In this document: piece after piece, positions 891 to 62,053 of the stretch
Layout of the letters: each line of letters opens with the position of its first letter
How positions within the stretch are numbered: position 1 is the first letter of the stretch
Assembly (NCBI RefSeq): GCF_022869805.1
Contig: NZ_CP094974.1
Location: 496,001 to 560,000 of the forward strand
Origin: Halosolutus halophilus
GTDB lineage: Archaea > Halobacteriota > Halobacteria > Halobacteriales > Natrialbaceae
Length of the DNA stretch: 64,000 nucleotides
Reading direction: 5' to 3'
Translations under genes and position numbers: made by a program
The notes under the pieces: generated by a model
Database searches by the model: none
What the model saw: only the letters and a program-made list of their open reading frames with translations
Told to the model about the DNA's origin: nothing

Positions 891-1430
891 TTATTCCGGT
901 GCCTTCCTGTCTCGTTCGATGGCGGCACGGAGTGGCTCGAGCCCGGGAGAGCCGTCCCACCTCCAGCGGACGACCGCGAGGGATGCGAAGCCGACCTCCG
1001 AGAGGCGGTAGAACAGACCCAGCGGCGGGTGAGCGGCGGCGAGCACGGGTGGGATCGGGACCGCGATCAGCGGCCAGAAGAGAAACGGAACGCTCGCGGT
1101 GGGGTCCCACAGCAGCGGCGTGATATCGAGCAAACTGTGGGTGATCGCGCCGATCGCGAACGCGATTCCGTACTCGCCGCGGCCGTAGCGCCGCGCGAGG
1201 AGAGAGAGCCCGATCGCGAGCGGGACGAGGAAGAGTAACGAGTGGCCAAGTGACCGACCCGAGGGGAGGAGCCCGAGCGACCACGCCAGCGGTTTGTCGA
1301 CCAGATCCGGAAAGAGGCTCCCACCGAGGACGAGAAGAACCGGGACGGCCGTCGGCGGGCTGAGAGCGCGGAGACGGGTCGCGAGGCTGTAACAGAGATA
1401 GGCGACGGCGAGGTGACCGAGCGGGAGCAC
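891..1430 (-). CDS. DUF457/YdjM-like membrane-bound metal-dependent hydrolase
   Basis: This 179-residue multi-pass membrane protein begins MLPLGHLAVAYL (GTG start at 1430). It contains the family pattern of an N-terminal His, then GGSLFPDLVDKP, then a GRSLGHSLLF helix. These His and Asp residues are the presumed metal ligands of the DUF457 (YdjM, LexA-binding inner-membrane hydrolase) family. A TATA-like box at 1454-1459 lies 24 bases before the GTG, which supports this start and a leaderless transcript. A full-length paralogue is at 61481-62053. A frameshifted acidic microprotein gene lies just upstream on the same strand. The real substrate of this family in archaea is unknown. Confidence 0.75.
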   Translation of the reverse strand: MLPLGHLAVAYLCYSLATRLRALSPPTAVPVLLVLGGSLFPDLVDKPLAWSLGLLPSGRSLGHSLLFLVPLAIGLSLLARRYGRGEYGIAFAIGAITHSLLDITPLLWDPTASVPFLFWPLIAVPIPPVLAAAHPPLGLFYRLSEVGFASLAVVRWRWDGSPGLEPLRAAIERDRKAPE

Positions 1431-20282: not shown

Positions 20283-20390
20283 CTACGAACCGATGATCAG
20301 GTCGTCGGACTCGGTCTCGGAATCCGCGATCGCCTCGTCGACCTCCTGCTGGGTCGCTTCGTCGAACTGCGTCTCGTCCTGCTCTTCCAT
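20283..20390 (-). CDS. EATQ-type acidic microprotein (copy B), 35 aa
   Basis: This 35-residue, strongly acidic peptide starts MEEQDETQFDEATQQEVDEA and ends DLIIGS. It shares EATQ-x-x-VD-x-AI with copies C (58663-58791) and D (61235-61363) and with the broken copy A. A TATA-like box (TTTTAATA on the minus strand, 20417-20424) lies 27-34 bases before the ATG at 20390, which supports this start over the longer in-frame ATG at 20417. A DUF457-like membrane protein lies about 490 bases upstream on the same strand. The function is unknown. A helical, negatively charged peptide acting on a membrane or protein partner is only a guess. Confidence 0.6.
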   Translation of the reverse strand: MEEQDETQFDEATQQEVDEAIADSETESDDLIIGS

Positions 20391-20880: not shown

Positions 20881-21324
20881 CTACGGAAGCGCGCCAACCG
20901 TCGCCGCGATGAGCAACAGGGTCGGGAGCAGTGCAATCGCCAGGGCGACGAGCCGGGGACCGATCGGGGCTGCACCGGCAGTTCGGTCGCGGACCTGTAC
21001 AATCACCGTAAACACGCTGACGGCGGCGAGCACACACAGGAGCGACCCGAAGACGCTCGCAGTGTACCGCGCTCGAACGGCCGGCCGATCGAGCGTGGAG
21101 TGGAACGCAAAGAGATCGGCCCACGGGGAGGTATGGAGTGCGTACAGCTGTGTCTCGTAGAGTGGCGCGATGTGGTGGACGTCGGGTCCGAGCCCCCAGA
21201 GCCCGCCACAGACGACGAGCCACAGCGGCGCCCACGGCGCGAGCTGGTAGCGAAGCGCGAGCGGCGTCGCGTACAGGAGCGCCAGCGACGCACCGACGAG
21301 GAAGTGGACGAGTGCGGGGGCCAT
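20881..21324 (-). CDS. DUF457-like membrane protein, type II, 147 aa
   Basis: The protein has four predicted hydrophobic helices. It begins MAPALVHFLVGASLALLYAT and contains GGLWGLGPDVHHIAPLYETQ and then HTSPWADLFAFHSTLDRP. The D-x-H-H and the later paired His and Asp residues recall the metal-site pattern of DUF457-type membrane hydrolases, though the sequence is distinct from the copies at 891-1430 and 61481-62053. A degraded copy is at 58258-58661. The EATQ microprotein copy B lies downstream on the same strand. The enzymatic function is unproven. Confidence 0.65.
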   Translation of the reverse strand: MAPALVHFLVGASLALLYATPLALRYQLAPWAPLWLVVCGGLWGLGPDVHHIAPLYETQLYALHTSPWADLFAFHSTLDRPAVRARYTASVFGSLLCVLAAVSVFTVIVQVRDRTAGAAPIGPRLVALAIALLPTLLLIAATVGALP

Positions 21325-57544: not shown

Positions 57545-57955
57545 TCAAAAGGTCGTCCAATCGACGACAGTGACGTCGTCCATCCGATCGAAGTGGTCCA
57601 CGTTCGCAGTGAGCACCGAGAGCTGTTCGACCATTGCCGTCGCCCCGATGTAGACGTCATGGAGATCATGAAGTGGCGTGCCTGGCTGTTGTAACTCGCT
57701 GATGATGTCGGCGGCAGCGGTCGCGACCGCGCGATCGACCTCGAGGATTTCGAACCGTGCGAGGAGCCGTTCGAGATCCTCGAGTGCGTCCTGCCGTGTC
57801 GCACTGTCCGTGTATCGCTTGTTTACGCCGAGGCGCAGTTCGGTGACTGTGACCGTACTGATCGCGTGGCGTCCCTCATCGTCAAGCCTGGCGACCCGAT
57901 CGGCGACCCCGCCGCGGTCGATATCGACGAGCACCGACGTATCACAGAGTTTCAT
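57545..57955 (-). CDS. vapC: VapC toxin, PIN-domain ribonuclease, 136 aa
   Basis: This PIN domain begins MKLCDTSVLVDI, with the first catalytic Asp at residue 5. It carries ISTVTVTELRLGV (acidic residue in the second position of the site), HDLHDVYIGATAMVEQL (third Asp) and LTANVDHFDR (fourth). These are the four acidic metal ligands of VapC ribonucleases. The start codon lies within the end of vapB (overlap 14 bases), the usual cassette order antitoxin then toxin. The ATG at 57955 is chosen over an in-frame ATG 21 bases upstream because homologues begin directly at M-x-x-x-D-T-S. The toxin would cleave RNA when the antitoxin is lost. Confidence 0.92.
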   Translation of the reverse strand: MKLCDTSVLVDIDRGGVADRVARLDDEGRHAISTVTVTELRLGVNKRYTDSATRQDALEDLERLLARFEILEVDRAVATAAADIISELQQPGTPLHDLHDVYIGATAMVEQLSVLTANVDHFDRMDDVTVVDWTTF

Positions 57956-58169
57956 CGTCGAGGTCCTCGAGCGCACCGCGACTCAACTGTCCGACATCTT
58001 CCTTGACGGCGTCGTACGTCTCGCGATCGAGTACGCCCACGCCCGTGACGTCGGCGAGTTGGCGACGCTCTTCGAGGTGGTCTCTAATGACGTCGCTGAA
58101 ACTGCGATCTCCCTTCTCGCGTTTGAGTTCGCGATAAACGTCGTCGGAGATCGCGATGTTCTTGCTCAT
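57942..58169 (-). CDS. vapB: VapB-type antitoxin, 75 aa
   Basis: The N-terminal part MSKNIAISDDVYRELKREKG followed by RSFSDVIRDHLEERRQL is a ribbon-helix-helix or DUF217-type antitoxin fold, typical of archaeal VapB. The C-terminus VLDRETYDAVKEDVGQLSRG should wrap the toxin. It overlaps vapC by 14 bases. A 16-base near-palindrome (58177-58192) stands immediately upstream of the ATG at 58169 and is probably its own operator. The same C-terminal segment occurs as a relic at 55866-55925. Confidence 0.9.
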   Translation of the reverse strand: MSKNIAISDDVYRELKREKGDRSFSDVIRDHLEERRQLADVTGVGVLDRETYDAVKEDVGQLSRGALEDLDDETL

Positions 58170-58176
58170 ATAGTAT

Positions 58177-58192
58177 GTATGGGTACTCATAC
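58177..58192 (-). promoter_or_regulatory. Palindrome upstream of vapBC
   Basis: GTATG-GGTACT-CATAC has perfect 5-base arms and a nearly symmetric centre. It ends 8 bases before the vapB start, where autoregulation of toxin-antitoxin operons usually takes place. Confidence 0.5.
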
Positions 58193-58257: not shown

Positions 58258-58661
58258 TTACGGATTCGTGACGCGATCACTCGGCCAGGCGGTGATCTCC
58301 GGGAGGCCGCCGACGATCGCCGCGATGAGGAGCACCGGTGAGAGCAATGCCACCACTAGTGCGACGAGATGTGGGAGGCGTGTCTGTGCGACTCCGGTCC
58401 GTGTGCGCAACTGGGCTGCGCCCGTAAATACCAGCGCCGAGGAAGTACAGGATCGCAGCGGCGATGCTCGCGTCAGTGCGTGCCCGGACGAACGGTCGAT
58501 CGAGCGTGTAGTGGATGGCGAAGAGATCGGCCCACGGGGAGTTGTGGATCGCGTACAGCTGAGTCTCGTAGCCCGGGACGATGTGGTGGATGTCGGGCGT
58601 GAGCCCCCAGAGGCCGCCAGCGGCGACGAGCCACAGCGGCCACCACGGCGAGAGCCGCGGG
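58258..58661 (-). pseudogene. Truncated, frameshifted copy of the type II membrane protein (20881-21324)
   Basis: On the minus strand WWPLWLVAAGGLWGLTPDIH and YETQLYAIHNSPWADLFAIH match the gene at 20.9 kb. After LYFLGAGIY the frame shifts near 58420, and RLPHLVALVVALLSPVLLIA then IVGGLPEITAW continue in the other frame to 58258. The first 27 or so codons of the intact gene are missing, and the sequence runs straight into the 3' end of the EATQ microprotein gene. It cannot give the full membrane protein. Confidence 0.7.
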
Positions 58662-58662
58662 A

Positions 58663-58791
58663 TCAGGACTCGATCGGGGTCCGCTCGTCCCGCTCGATCG
58701 CGTCGATCGCGGCGTCGACGTCCGCCTGGGTCGCCTCCGGGAGGTCCGCATCGGACCCGTCCGTCTCTACCGCTCGGTCGTTTGCCGTCAT
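58663..58791 (-). CDS. EATQ-type acidic microprotein (copy C), 42 aa
   Basis: Sequence pattern: MTANDRAVETDGSDADLPEA is followed by TQADVDAAIDAIERDERTPI and ES. It is closest to copy D (61235-61363), sharing LPEATQ, VDAAI and AIE, and ends in the same type of I-x-S tail. A TATA-like box (58819-58826) is 28-35 bases upstream of the ATG at 58791, so the gene should be leaderless. The stop lies 2 bases before the coding-like sequence of a broken DUF457-like membrane protein, suggesting that the microprotein gene replaced its 5' end. The function is unknown. Confidence 0.62.
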   Translation of the reverse strand: MTANDRAVETDGSDADLPEATQADVDAAIDAIERDERTPIES

Positions 58792-58818
58792 CCCCGCTTG
58801 AGTCGTTATTGTATCTGA

Positions 58819-58826
58819 GATATATG
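58819..58826 (-). promoter_or_regulatory. TATA-like box of microprotein copy C
   Basis: CATATATC on the minus strand lies 28-35 bases before the ATG at 58791. The wider region, TATATGTTTTGTGG on the plus strand, is shared with copy D. Confidence 0.5.
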
Positions 58827-59054
58827 TTTTGTGGCCAACACCATCCCGATTGTGCAGCGTCACCCCACTAGAGCCGGCGTCACGGGGCGTGTCGGCGAAC
58901 CACGGTGGCCGACGAACGACGGCTCGCATCGGCGTGCGGTGATCGGTTCGCGTGGCGCGGCGAACCGGCAATGGAGGTGTCGCCGCAGTCGCCCGGCAAC
59001 GTGGCGTTGGACGACCGGGAAACACGCACTGTGGGTCCCGTTGAACGCGTTCGT

Positions 59055-59240
59055 ACGGCAGACACACTCTGGCTCGTGGGGCTCGCCGTCGTCGGCCTGG
59101 TCGCCCTCTGAGTCCTCCTCGAACTGGTCGCGATCGCCGTTGAGTTCGTCTCGTGGGTCGTGACCACCGACGTCTCGCTGGCGGTGCTCGCGCTCGCGTT
59201 GTCCGTCGGCTATCTCGTGCTCTCGGCGGTGCTGGAGTGA
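59055..59240 (+). pseudogene. Dead copy of the 61-aa membrane protein
   Basis: This is the same length as 1854-2039 and reads TADTLWLVGLAVVGLVAL, then TGA, then VLLELVAIAVEFVSWVVTT. The start codon is ACG instead of ATG, and codon 19 is TGA where the intact gene has TGG. The remainder is open to the same stop. Both lesions are single transitions, so decay is recent. Confidence 0.75.
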
Positions 59241-59520
59241 GTCCGGACCTAGCGGTGCCACCGCTGGAAGCGGCGGGCTCGGCCCGGCGATCGAGGCGGA
59301 CGTATCGACGGCGGAGGCGACCACGGCCAGGGGGTCTGCGATCGGGCACCTCGTCCCGGATCGCTGCCTACGACCTTCTTGGTAGTGACACCTCGTGGGT
59401 CGTCCGCTTCAGCACTTGCCCTCGGCTCGGGCCCGATCCGTTCGCCTTCCTCACGGTCTACTGCATCGATCGAGTACGCTTTTACTGGCGGGGTAAAGTG
59501 AGTGTCTGATCCATCGGAAG

Positions 59521-60696: not shown

Positions 60697-61234
60697 CGCA
60701 ACTATAGCAGGCCAGATAAATACTATTGCGGTGGGTTGAAAAATAATCGTGCGTGACCAATTTGGATAGCGGTCTACGCTCCAAACGTGCTATTCTGCCC
60801 GGTTCAGCGACCACCATCGTGAGTCGTGATCGCCGTCGACAATCGAGACGGAGCGGTCCATAGCGGGCGTCGCAGCCGTGAACACTGCTGACGTCTGTGT
60901 AGTTGCAGCTGGTCGCATCCTGGGTGGCAACTCGGTTGGGGCGATCGGGACCACCTCCGGATCCCCAGTCCAGGGCCTGACGACGAGCGCGCCCGCCGCG
61001 AGCAGTCGGGCGCTCGCCGTCCTCCGTCCCGGACCGTCTCGATCGCACACCGACTCACCGACGTGAGCGGGGCGGTGTCGGACGACTGCCGGGTGCGATC
61101 GACCTTCTAGTCGAGTCCAGTCCCGGAGTGGGCGAGGGGCGCCGGCCACGCGGTGGCTGGGACTCACGACCGACGGGATGGAAATTCGAGAGAGAACAGG
61201 AGCGACGCACCGCTCGCGCTACGACTGGCCGACG
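60697..61234. other. Intergenic, no gene seen
   Basis: These 538 bases lie between the patatin gene and microprotein copy D. No frame on either strand resembles protein. The first 80 bases are AT-rich and should include the patatin promoter. Confidence 0.35.
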
Positions 61235-61363
61235 TTACGACCCGACGACGATCCGCTCGTGCTCTTCGATCGCCTCGATCGCGGCGTCGACTTCTGACTG
61301 AGTCGCCTCGGGGAGTTCCGGCTCGCACTCCGCTTCGTCCGCGTGTCGTTCGTTCTCGGTCAT
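61235..61363 (-). CDS. EATQ-type acidic microprotein (copy D), 42 aa
   Basis: The peptide reads MTENERHADEAECEPELPEA, then TQSEVDAAIEAIEEHERIVV and GS. It has the family core LPEATQ-x-(D/E)-VDAAI-x-AIE and the terminal I-V-V-G-S, like I-I-G-S in copy B. It lies downstream of a DUF457 membrane protein (61481-62053) on the same strand, about 120 bases away. A TATA-like box at 61396-61401 sits 33-38 bases before the ATG at 61363, so it can be transcribed alone. It has one Cys (residue 13). The function is unknown. Confidence 0.62.
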   Translation of the reverse strand: MTENERHADEAECEPELPEATQSEVDAAIEAIEEHERIVVGS

Positions 61364-61395
61364 CGCCAGTCGAGTACTCGTTTTCCGATCCGAGG

Positions 61396-61401
61396 TATAT
61401 G
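61396..61401 (-). promoter_or_regulatory. TATA-like box of microprotein copy D
   Basis: CATATA on the minus strand, in a block (TATATGTTTTGTGGGCGACA on the plus strand) that matches the region upstream of copy C almost base for base. Confidence 0.5.
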
Positions 61402-61480
61402 TTTTGTGGGCGACACCATCCCGAGCGCGAAGCGGGACGTCGGCGTCGGGCTCCGCGGCGGGGCGTGCGTGCCACTGGCG

Positions 61481-62053
61481 TCAGTTGCCGACGGCGGGTG
61501 CCGAGCCGAGATGGGTCCAGACGCGGAGCGAGACGAATACGACGAGCGCAGCCACGATCAGGGAGAGCTCCGGGTGGGTCTGGGGCTGCTGGTAGAGCTC
61601 GAGGAGCCGCATCCAGGGGGCGACGCTGTCGCCCGGATAGCGAGGGGCGGGGAGGACCGGCCAGAGCAGGAACGTCAGGTCGGCGTGGATGCCCGCCAGC
61701 AGGGGCCCGAGGCTGTCGCCGACGAGATGCGAGAGGTAGCCAACGCCGAACGCCGCCGGGGCGACGGCCCCGAGCTGGTGGGTCCGGCTGTGCGCGGGCG
61801 TCCGCCGGCGGAGCGCGTGGGCGCCCCCGCTGACGAAGCCCACGAGGAGCGCGGTGATTAGGAGCGAATGGCCGACCGAGCGGCCGCTCGCGAGCACGCC
61901 ACCGTACGCCAGCGGCTTATCGAGTAGATCGGGGAGTTGACTGCCGATCGCCAGCGGGACGAGGGCCCAGCGCACCGGCAGCGGCCGACGGGCCAGGACG
62001 GCGTAGGCGACGTACCAGAGATACGCGAAGGCGAGATGGCCGAGCGGAAACAC
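61481..62053 (-). CDS. DUF457/YdjM-like membrane-bound metal-dependent hydrolase, 190 aa
   Basis: This is a paralogue of 891-1430. It begins MFPLGHLAFAYLWYVAYAVL (GTG start at 62053) and contains AIGSQLPDLLDKPLAYGG, then GRSVGHSLLITALLVGFVSG and VGYLSHLVGDSLGPLLAG. The His and Asp residues of the family metal site (P-D-L-L-D-K-P, G-H-S-L, S-H-x-x-G-D) are all present, and the last of these is better preserved here than in the first copy. About five helices are predicted. The GTG start is chosen by alignment with the paralogue, which also begins at GTG. The EATQ microprotein copy D follows on the same strand. Confidence 0.75.
   Translation of the reverse strand: MFPLGHLAFAYLWYVAYAVLARRPLPVRWALVPLAIGSQLPDLLDKPLAYGGVLASGRSVGHSLLITALLVGFVSGGAHALRRRTPAHSRTHQLGAVAPAAFGVGYLSHLVGDSLGPLLAGIHADLTFLLWPVLPAPRYPGDSVAPWMRLLELYQQPQTHPELSLIVAALVVFVSLRVWTHLGSAPAVGN

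Follow-up and report, generated by a model that had tools for sequence, protein, structure and literature searches.

The analysed DNA, a window of 64,000 nucleotides from the haloarchaeon Halosolutus halophilus, raises the question of whether a reading frame of only 42 residues (61235–61363, minus strand) is a working gene and, if so, whether it operates together with the membrane protein gene encoded beside it. The predicted product, MTENERHADEAECEPELPEATQSEVDAAIEAIEEHERIVVGS, is highly acidic (pI ~4.05), and we refer to it and its relatives as EATQ peptides. Our analyses show that this is a selected microprotein gene, which carries its own promoter and has no fixed partner gene.

An earlier note, made from the letters of the window, had described such peptides at four places, one of them broken, and a profile search of the 5.06 Mb genome agrees with this count and extends it. 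All four window copies are located on the minus strand: copy 1 (1479–1586), copy 2 (20283–20390, 35 residues), copy 3 (58663–58791, 42 residues ending in the tail TPIES) and copy 4, the gene introduced above. Constructed from the three intact window copies, the profile returns these at E-values of 4e-25, 3e-23 and 2e-15, and it likewise detects copy 1 (1.6e-7) as well as an intact copy 5 (1e-23), which was not part of the profile and lies at genome positions 573440–573565, 13 kb past the window end. The next-best match in the genome has an E-value of 0.4, compared with 1.6e-7 or better for the five copies, and these genome-scale values argue that the copies are not due to chance. Copy 1 is a frameshifted relic, as its start (MPANDRAAG) is found in one frame and its EATQADVDAATDAIER core in another. 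The segment carrying copy 4 (60958–61430, minus strand) aligns over 473 bp at 92% identity with the segment carrying copy 5 (genome 573165–573632), and the two differ at 2 of 129 coding positions versus 35 of 344 flanking ones (p=0.0009). A further duplicated segment (58681–59291, minus strand; 80% identity, partner 1486–2091) carries copies 3 and 1. The five local copies arose by two or more segmental duplications that do not share their boundaries, and they represent an expansion confined to this region, chiefly within the VVGS subgroup, with a promoter different from that of the commonest subgroup. Copy 5 lies next to glmS and a zinc-finger ORF, and a VapC/VapB-like toxin-antitoxin pair, assigned by eye, is found just downstream of copy 3 (57545–58190, minus strand).

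Beyond this genome, the EATQ peptides are a new, previously unannotated family of standalone acidic microproteins of 26–45 residues encoded by the Natrialbaceae. Matches at E<=0.02 were obtained from 67 of 125 Natrialbaceae genomes, a number that includes a few chance matches inside long frames, a minority of the weakest ones. Strong matches occur in approximately half of the 125 related genomes and are almost absent beyond the Natrialbaceae; in an order-wide search of 392 genomes, those outside the family were few and weak. Among the carriers are Natrinema pallidum, N. altunense, N. gari, N. ejinorense, N. salsiterrestre and N. thermotolerans, Halopiger goleimassiliensis and Natrarchaeobius chitinivorans, and the assignment of this group to the Natrialbaceae agrees with a Natrinema plasmid record. 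The roughly 60 peptides that were read out share the core EAT(Q)xEVxxAIxxLE. Most of them end in a C-terminal tail of the form IIIAD(E/G/R) or (I/L)VVGS, while a minority are tail-less. In the 43 tail-bearing members, E19, A20, V25, A28 and E33 (copy 4 numbering) are invariant. The impression that this family was not a recognized one is supported by searches of Pfam, NCBIfam and PHROG, in which no family matched and the best marginal similarities were to low-complexity helical models (DUF1542, FIVAR), and by a PDB profile search that yielded nothing significant (best E 0.11). No match was obtained from phages by tblastn, and a DNA pattern search of viral contigs gave two matches, both within unrelated proteins. 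Annotation pipelines overlook genes this short: in the one annotated record that was checked (NZ_CP082247.1), no gene is listed at the EATQ copy, with the reservation that the gene table of this collection is incomplete.

Several variants were encountered at the margins of the family. At one locus the helix is fused to a transmembrane segment (L125, 5992–6219), and at two others (L146, L159) to a conserved basic C-terminus of ~30 residues. Tail-less peptides are encoded within tight small-gene operons of provirus- or plasmid-like character (L131, L133, L134, L144, L145), several of which also contain C5-type DNA methyltransferases, as assigned by eye. On a contig of Natrarchaeobius chitinivorans (L124), two EATQ genes are separated by 4.8 kb; one has a P0009-family membrane gene and a TnpB-like gene as neighbours, the other a DUF7835 zinc ribbon. 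In members of the order outside the Natrialbaceae, conserved ORFs of 44–47 residues start from GTG and share WPFxxxEFVRASRLLEATDDDVRRAIE (L149, L151–L155); these could be distant relatives or represent a convergent helix. As acidic helices are common in halophiles, the weak distant matches outside the family may be convergent. Distant matches from a second family of haloarchaea ("RASRLLEATDDDVRRAIE", 47 residues), which are syntenic among themselves, were not accepted as homologous, since they were too weak.

Evidence for a functional product comes from the pattern of substitution. Across 12 independent close pairs (Nei-Gojobori), 66 synonymous changes were counted in 234.5 sites and 65 non-synonymous changes in 899.5 sites, resulting in a pooled omega of 0.22 (Fisher p=3.8e-16). 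From this value over 12 pairs, it follows that the peptide is very probably both translated and useful, and together with the homologues across the Natrialbaceae it upholds the earlier suggestion of a conserved, real product. We regard the EATQ peptides as almost certainly a genuine translated family. Structurally, the peptide consists of one amphipathic helix, in most members followed by the hydrophobic C-terminal tail. AlphaFold predicts a single helix at residues 22–35 (pLDDT ~93 at 21–30) with the remainder unstructured, and differences in ORF length fall in the helix–tail linker and amount to whole codons. Since homology, selection and a conserved promoter all speak for it, the family is a clean target for studies of archaeal small proteomes.

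The unit that is conserved comprises ~170 bp, consisting of the promoter and the ORF, within surroundings that are ever-changing. When loci in different surroundings are compared, homology at the DNA level typically begins ~75 nt ahead of the ATG and ceases at the stop codon. In the window, the promoter region of copy 4 (61364–61430, minus strand) contains CCCACAAAACATAT, a TATA-like element, and is shared with copies 3 (58792–58850, minus strand) and 5, while the promoter of copy 2 has no homology to those of the other copies. Each intact window copy had been credited with its own TATA box and a likely leaderless start. Copies 3–5 do have a TATA-like CATAT(A/G) ~35–40 nt before the ATG, but leaderless initiation is not established, as this spacing fits either a very short leader or none. 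The commonest subgroup, with IADE tails, has a distinct promoter, in which the palindrome GCGTNTTC-N7-GAANACGC is followed after ~8 nt by TTTA(A/C). At up to 2 mismatches, this palindrome is present in 12 of 63 EATQ promoters, 73–77 nt before the ATG, compared with 0.0008 per promoter in shuffles. The IADE subgroup fits a regulon of this operator, which occupies a fixed position just upstream of TATA. The palindrome is missing from the copies of the window itself, where the best candidates have 5–7 mismatches of 14, and the operator is likewise absent from the tail-less forms. A model of the operator (R1) was also run over the 125 genomes, and its best 25 matches (E<2e-4) coincide with EATQ genes, a result that is partly circular, as most of these were in the training set. 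Its weaker, independent matches include many located just upstream of nreA, among them the best match in the genome of the window. The operator was also considered as a general mark of DUF7835 zinc-ribbon genes and dismissed, because 29 such promoters resemble shuffles and the site is confined to a second paralogue present in a few genomes. At three loci (L178, L182, L289, near position 1501), a related palindrome separates such a second DUF7835 zinc-ribbon gene from a divergent HTH_20 and DUF7521 pair, the HTH protein of which is a candidate regulator of the palindrome.

The association with nreA was also evident from direct counts. Eight of 29 nreA upstream regions contain the palindrome at up to 2 mismatches, against an expectation of 0.001 each, and the sites point toward nreA, with a TATA ~10 nt further on. 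They are positioned 155–261 nt upstream of the ATG (L254, L284, L293, L311, L315, L321, L326). This TATA is separated from nreA by a conserved hairpin (GAGGTTCGG...CCGAACCTC), in which 4 of 8 pairs exhibit compensatory change, followed by an invariant TGCCTCTGACA. The hairpin has no match in Rfam and is probably an unannotated small RNA. As a consequence of its placement, the operator may serve this RNA, either in addition to nreA or in its place. NreA itself binds PCNA and, in Haloferax, cooperates with UvrABC in countering mitomycin C damage (PMC7776575). The published UV motif TTTCACTTTCA (PMC2556686) was considered as the operator and set aside, as the sequences differ. An operator common to the EATQ genes and the nreA locus offers a concrete starting point for studying how haloarchaea, for which few regulators are known, control their responses to damage or stress, and the regulation can be examined in culturable Natrinema.

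How, then, should the membrane protein genes beside the window copies be interpreted? The earlier note had suggested that the peptide could serve DUF457-type membrane proteins as a regulator or cofactor, having found all four copies on the same strand as, and less than 500 nt from, such a gene or its relic. As geometry this is correct, and copies 1 and 4 do lie within 120 nt of a YdjM/DUF457 (PF04307) gene on the same strand (891–1430, minus strand, Pfam E 6.8e-14, and 61481–62053, minus strand, Pfam E 1.6e-10, respectively). The neighbour of copy 2 (20881–21324, minus strand) is instead a membrane protein without a Pfam match, termed P0009, with homologues in 57 of 125 genomes, and the frameshifted relic directly downstream of copy 3 (58258–58661, minus strand) belongs to this P0009 family rather than to DUF457. 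A remote relationship between the two families was likewise discounted, as hhalign detected none, albeit with shallow profiles. Even where DUF457 is present, the gene order differs between copies, and copy 5 has no DUF457 gene within 500 nt. Furthermore, a DUF457 profile made from proteins of the same genome, which does recover the window copies, yielded 0 matches in 60 foreign EATQ contexts (705 kb), where ~2 would be expected at the density of the own genome, so that no preference for DUF457 neighbours is apparent among these contexts. Much of the local coincidence is explained by the clustering of PF04307 genes around the window, since 7 of the 14 in the genome are found within ~260 kb (405–664 kb); at this local density, finding two such neighbours by chance would be only mildly improbable (p ~0.02). 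We are therefore confident that the EATQ peptide is not a DUF457 partner, judge neither PF04307 gene to be its functional partner, and consider the cofactor proposal highly improbable. A mobile two-gene module of the peptide and P0009 (MAPA..HFLVGA..PDVHH), most copies of which would have lost one half, has somewhat more in its favor: copy 2 has P0009 as a neighbour, copy 3 has its relic, and the adjacency returns in Natrarchaeobius chitinivorans, where P0009 and the EATQ gene share a strand at a distance of 319 nt upstream; ~0.03 adjacencies would be expected by chance outside the own genome. Such adjacency exceeds chance yet is rare (3 of ~60 EATQ loci), since ~60 P0009 homologues and ~58 EATQ loci elsewhere are non-adjacent, and the order is reversed at copy 3. 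Hence, we view the module as an unlikely explanation and the adjacency as at most a side branch. When contexts were compared across genomes, no neighbour gene recurred beside EATQ genes.

A second proposal of the earlier note, that the peptide is the mobile part of a selfish module, can be broadened to a mini-element spreading promoter and peptide together. The five copies within 76 kb and their two duplicated segments would suit such an element, as would several homologues near integrases, TnpB-like genes, plasmids or contig ends. Nevertheless, there are no terminal inverted repeats or target-site duplications, no mobility gene recurs at EATQ loci, the duplicated segments have unequal lengths and boundaries, close species keep the gene at orthologous positions, and the product is under purifying selection. 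No dedicated element is needed, since gene turnover in a variable region explains the local copies, and this proposal too appears improbable. It would similarly be surprising if the conserved entity were a regulatory RNA or a leader peptide rather than a working protein. Such an interpretation would accommodate the very short ORF, the strong conserved promoter and the candidate hairpin RNA that this operator precedes at nreA, but it conflicts with the excess of synonymous change and the whole-codon shifts of frame length in the linker, and a leader peptide would need a conserved downstream gene, of which there is none. A different kind of alternative accepts the protein and would assign it directly to repair, as a DNA-damage-induced peptide acting with the NreA/UvrABC/PCNA machinery. 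The occurrence of the same operator upstream of nreA and the reported activities of NreA, which binds PCNA and works with UvrABC (PMC7776575), would be in line with this, but the hairpin RNA may be what the site controls, the operator is unlike the published UV motif (PMC2556686), and the peptide has no evident PIP-box. We consider such a repair peptide possible but doubtful.

Our preferred interpretation, which we advance tentatively and rate just short of probable, is that of an adaptor peptide under a stress-type regulator. The EATQ peptide would act in trans, as an adaptor or inhibitor folding onto a partner protein. The helix face formed by V25, A28, I29 and the following L/I would provide affinity, and the hydrophobic tail might add a beta-like clamp. 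The acidic stretch together with the IVV tail might conceivably be read as SUMO-interaction-like. A portable binding helix of this type fits both the helix-membrane fusion and the tail-less forms of the provirus- or plasmid-like operons. The peptide would be made on demand, when the regulator at the palindrome allows, and the same regulator may also act at the nreA locus, plausibly in a response to DNA damage or stress; the connection to DNA damage comes only from the shared operator and the known role of NreA. A more ambitious version, which we regard as rather unlikely, envisions a haloarchaeal stress regulon in which an operator just upstream of TATA leads to the joint production of the acidic adaptor microprotein and the small hairpin RNA or the nreA transcript. 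If this is true, the EATQ peptide would supply the small effector so far missing from an archaeal response to damage.

When compared with known systems, the EATQ peptides can be placed beside the haloarchaeal zinc-finger mu-proteins (HVO_2753-type PF07754, HVO_0758, DUF7835), which are likewise haloarchaeal, shorter than 70 residues and encoded by standalone small genes. Unlike these, the EATQ peptides have 26–45 residues, a single helix plus tail and no zinc site, and none of the aligned members contains C(P)XCG pairs. The YdjM/DUF457 (PF04307) proteins are neighbours of copies 1 and 4 only, do not recur, and are unrelated in sequence to the peptide. Type II antitoxins of the VapB/RelB-like kind are likewise small acidic proteins, and a VapBC-like pair is encoded near copy 3; however, the EATQ peptide lacks a DNA-binding domain, and EATQ contexts exhibit no conserved adjacent toxin gene. 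Short disordered adaptor and inhibitor peptides form a general class that folds on binding. With this class the EATQ peptides share an amphipathic helix, a short hydrophobic tail and strong acidity, a resemblance that is one of analogy and not of sequence relation.
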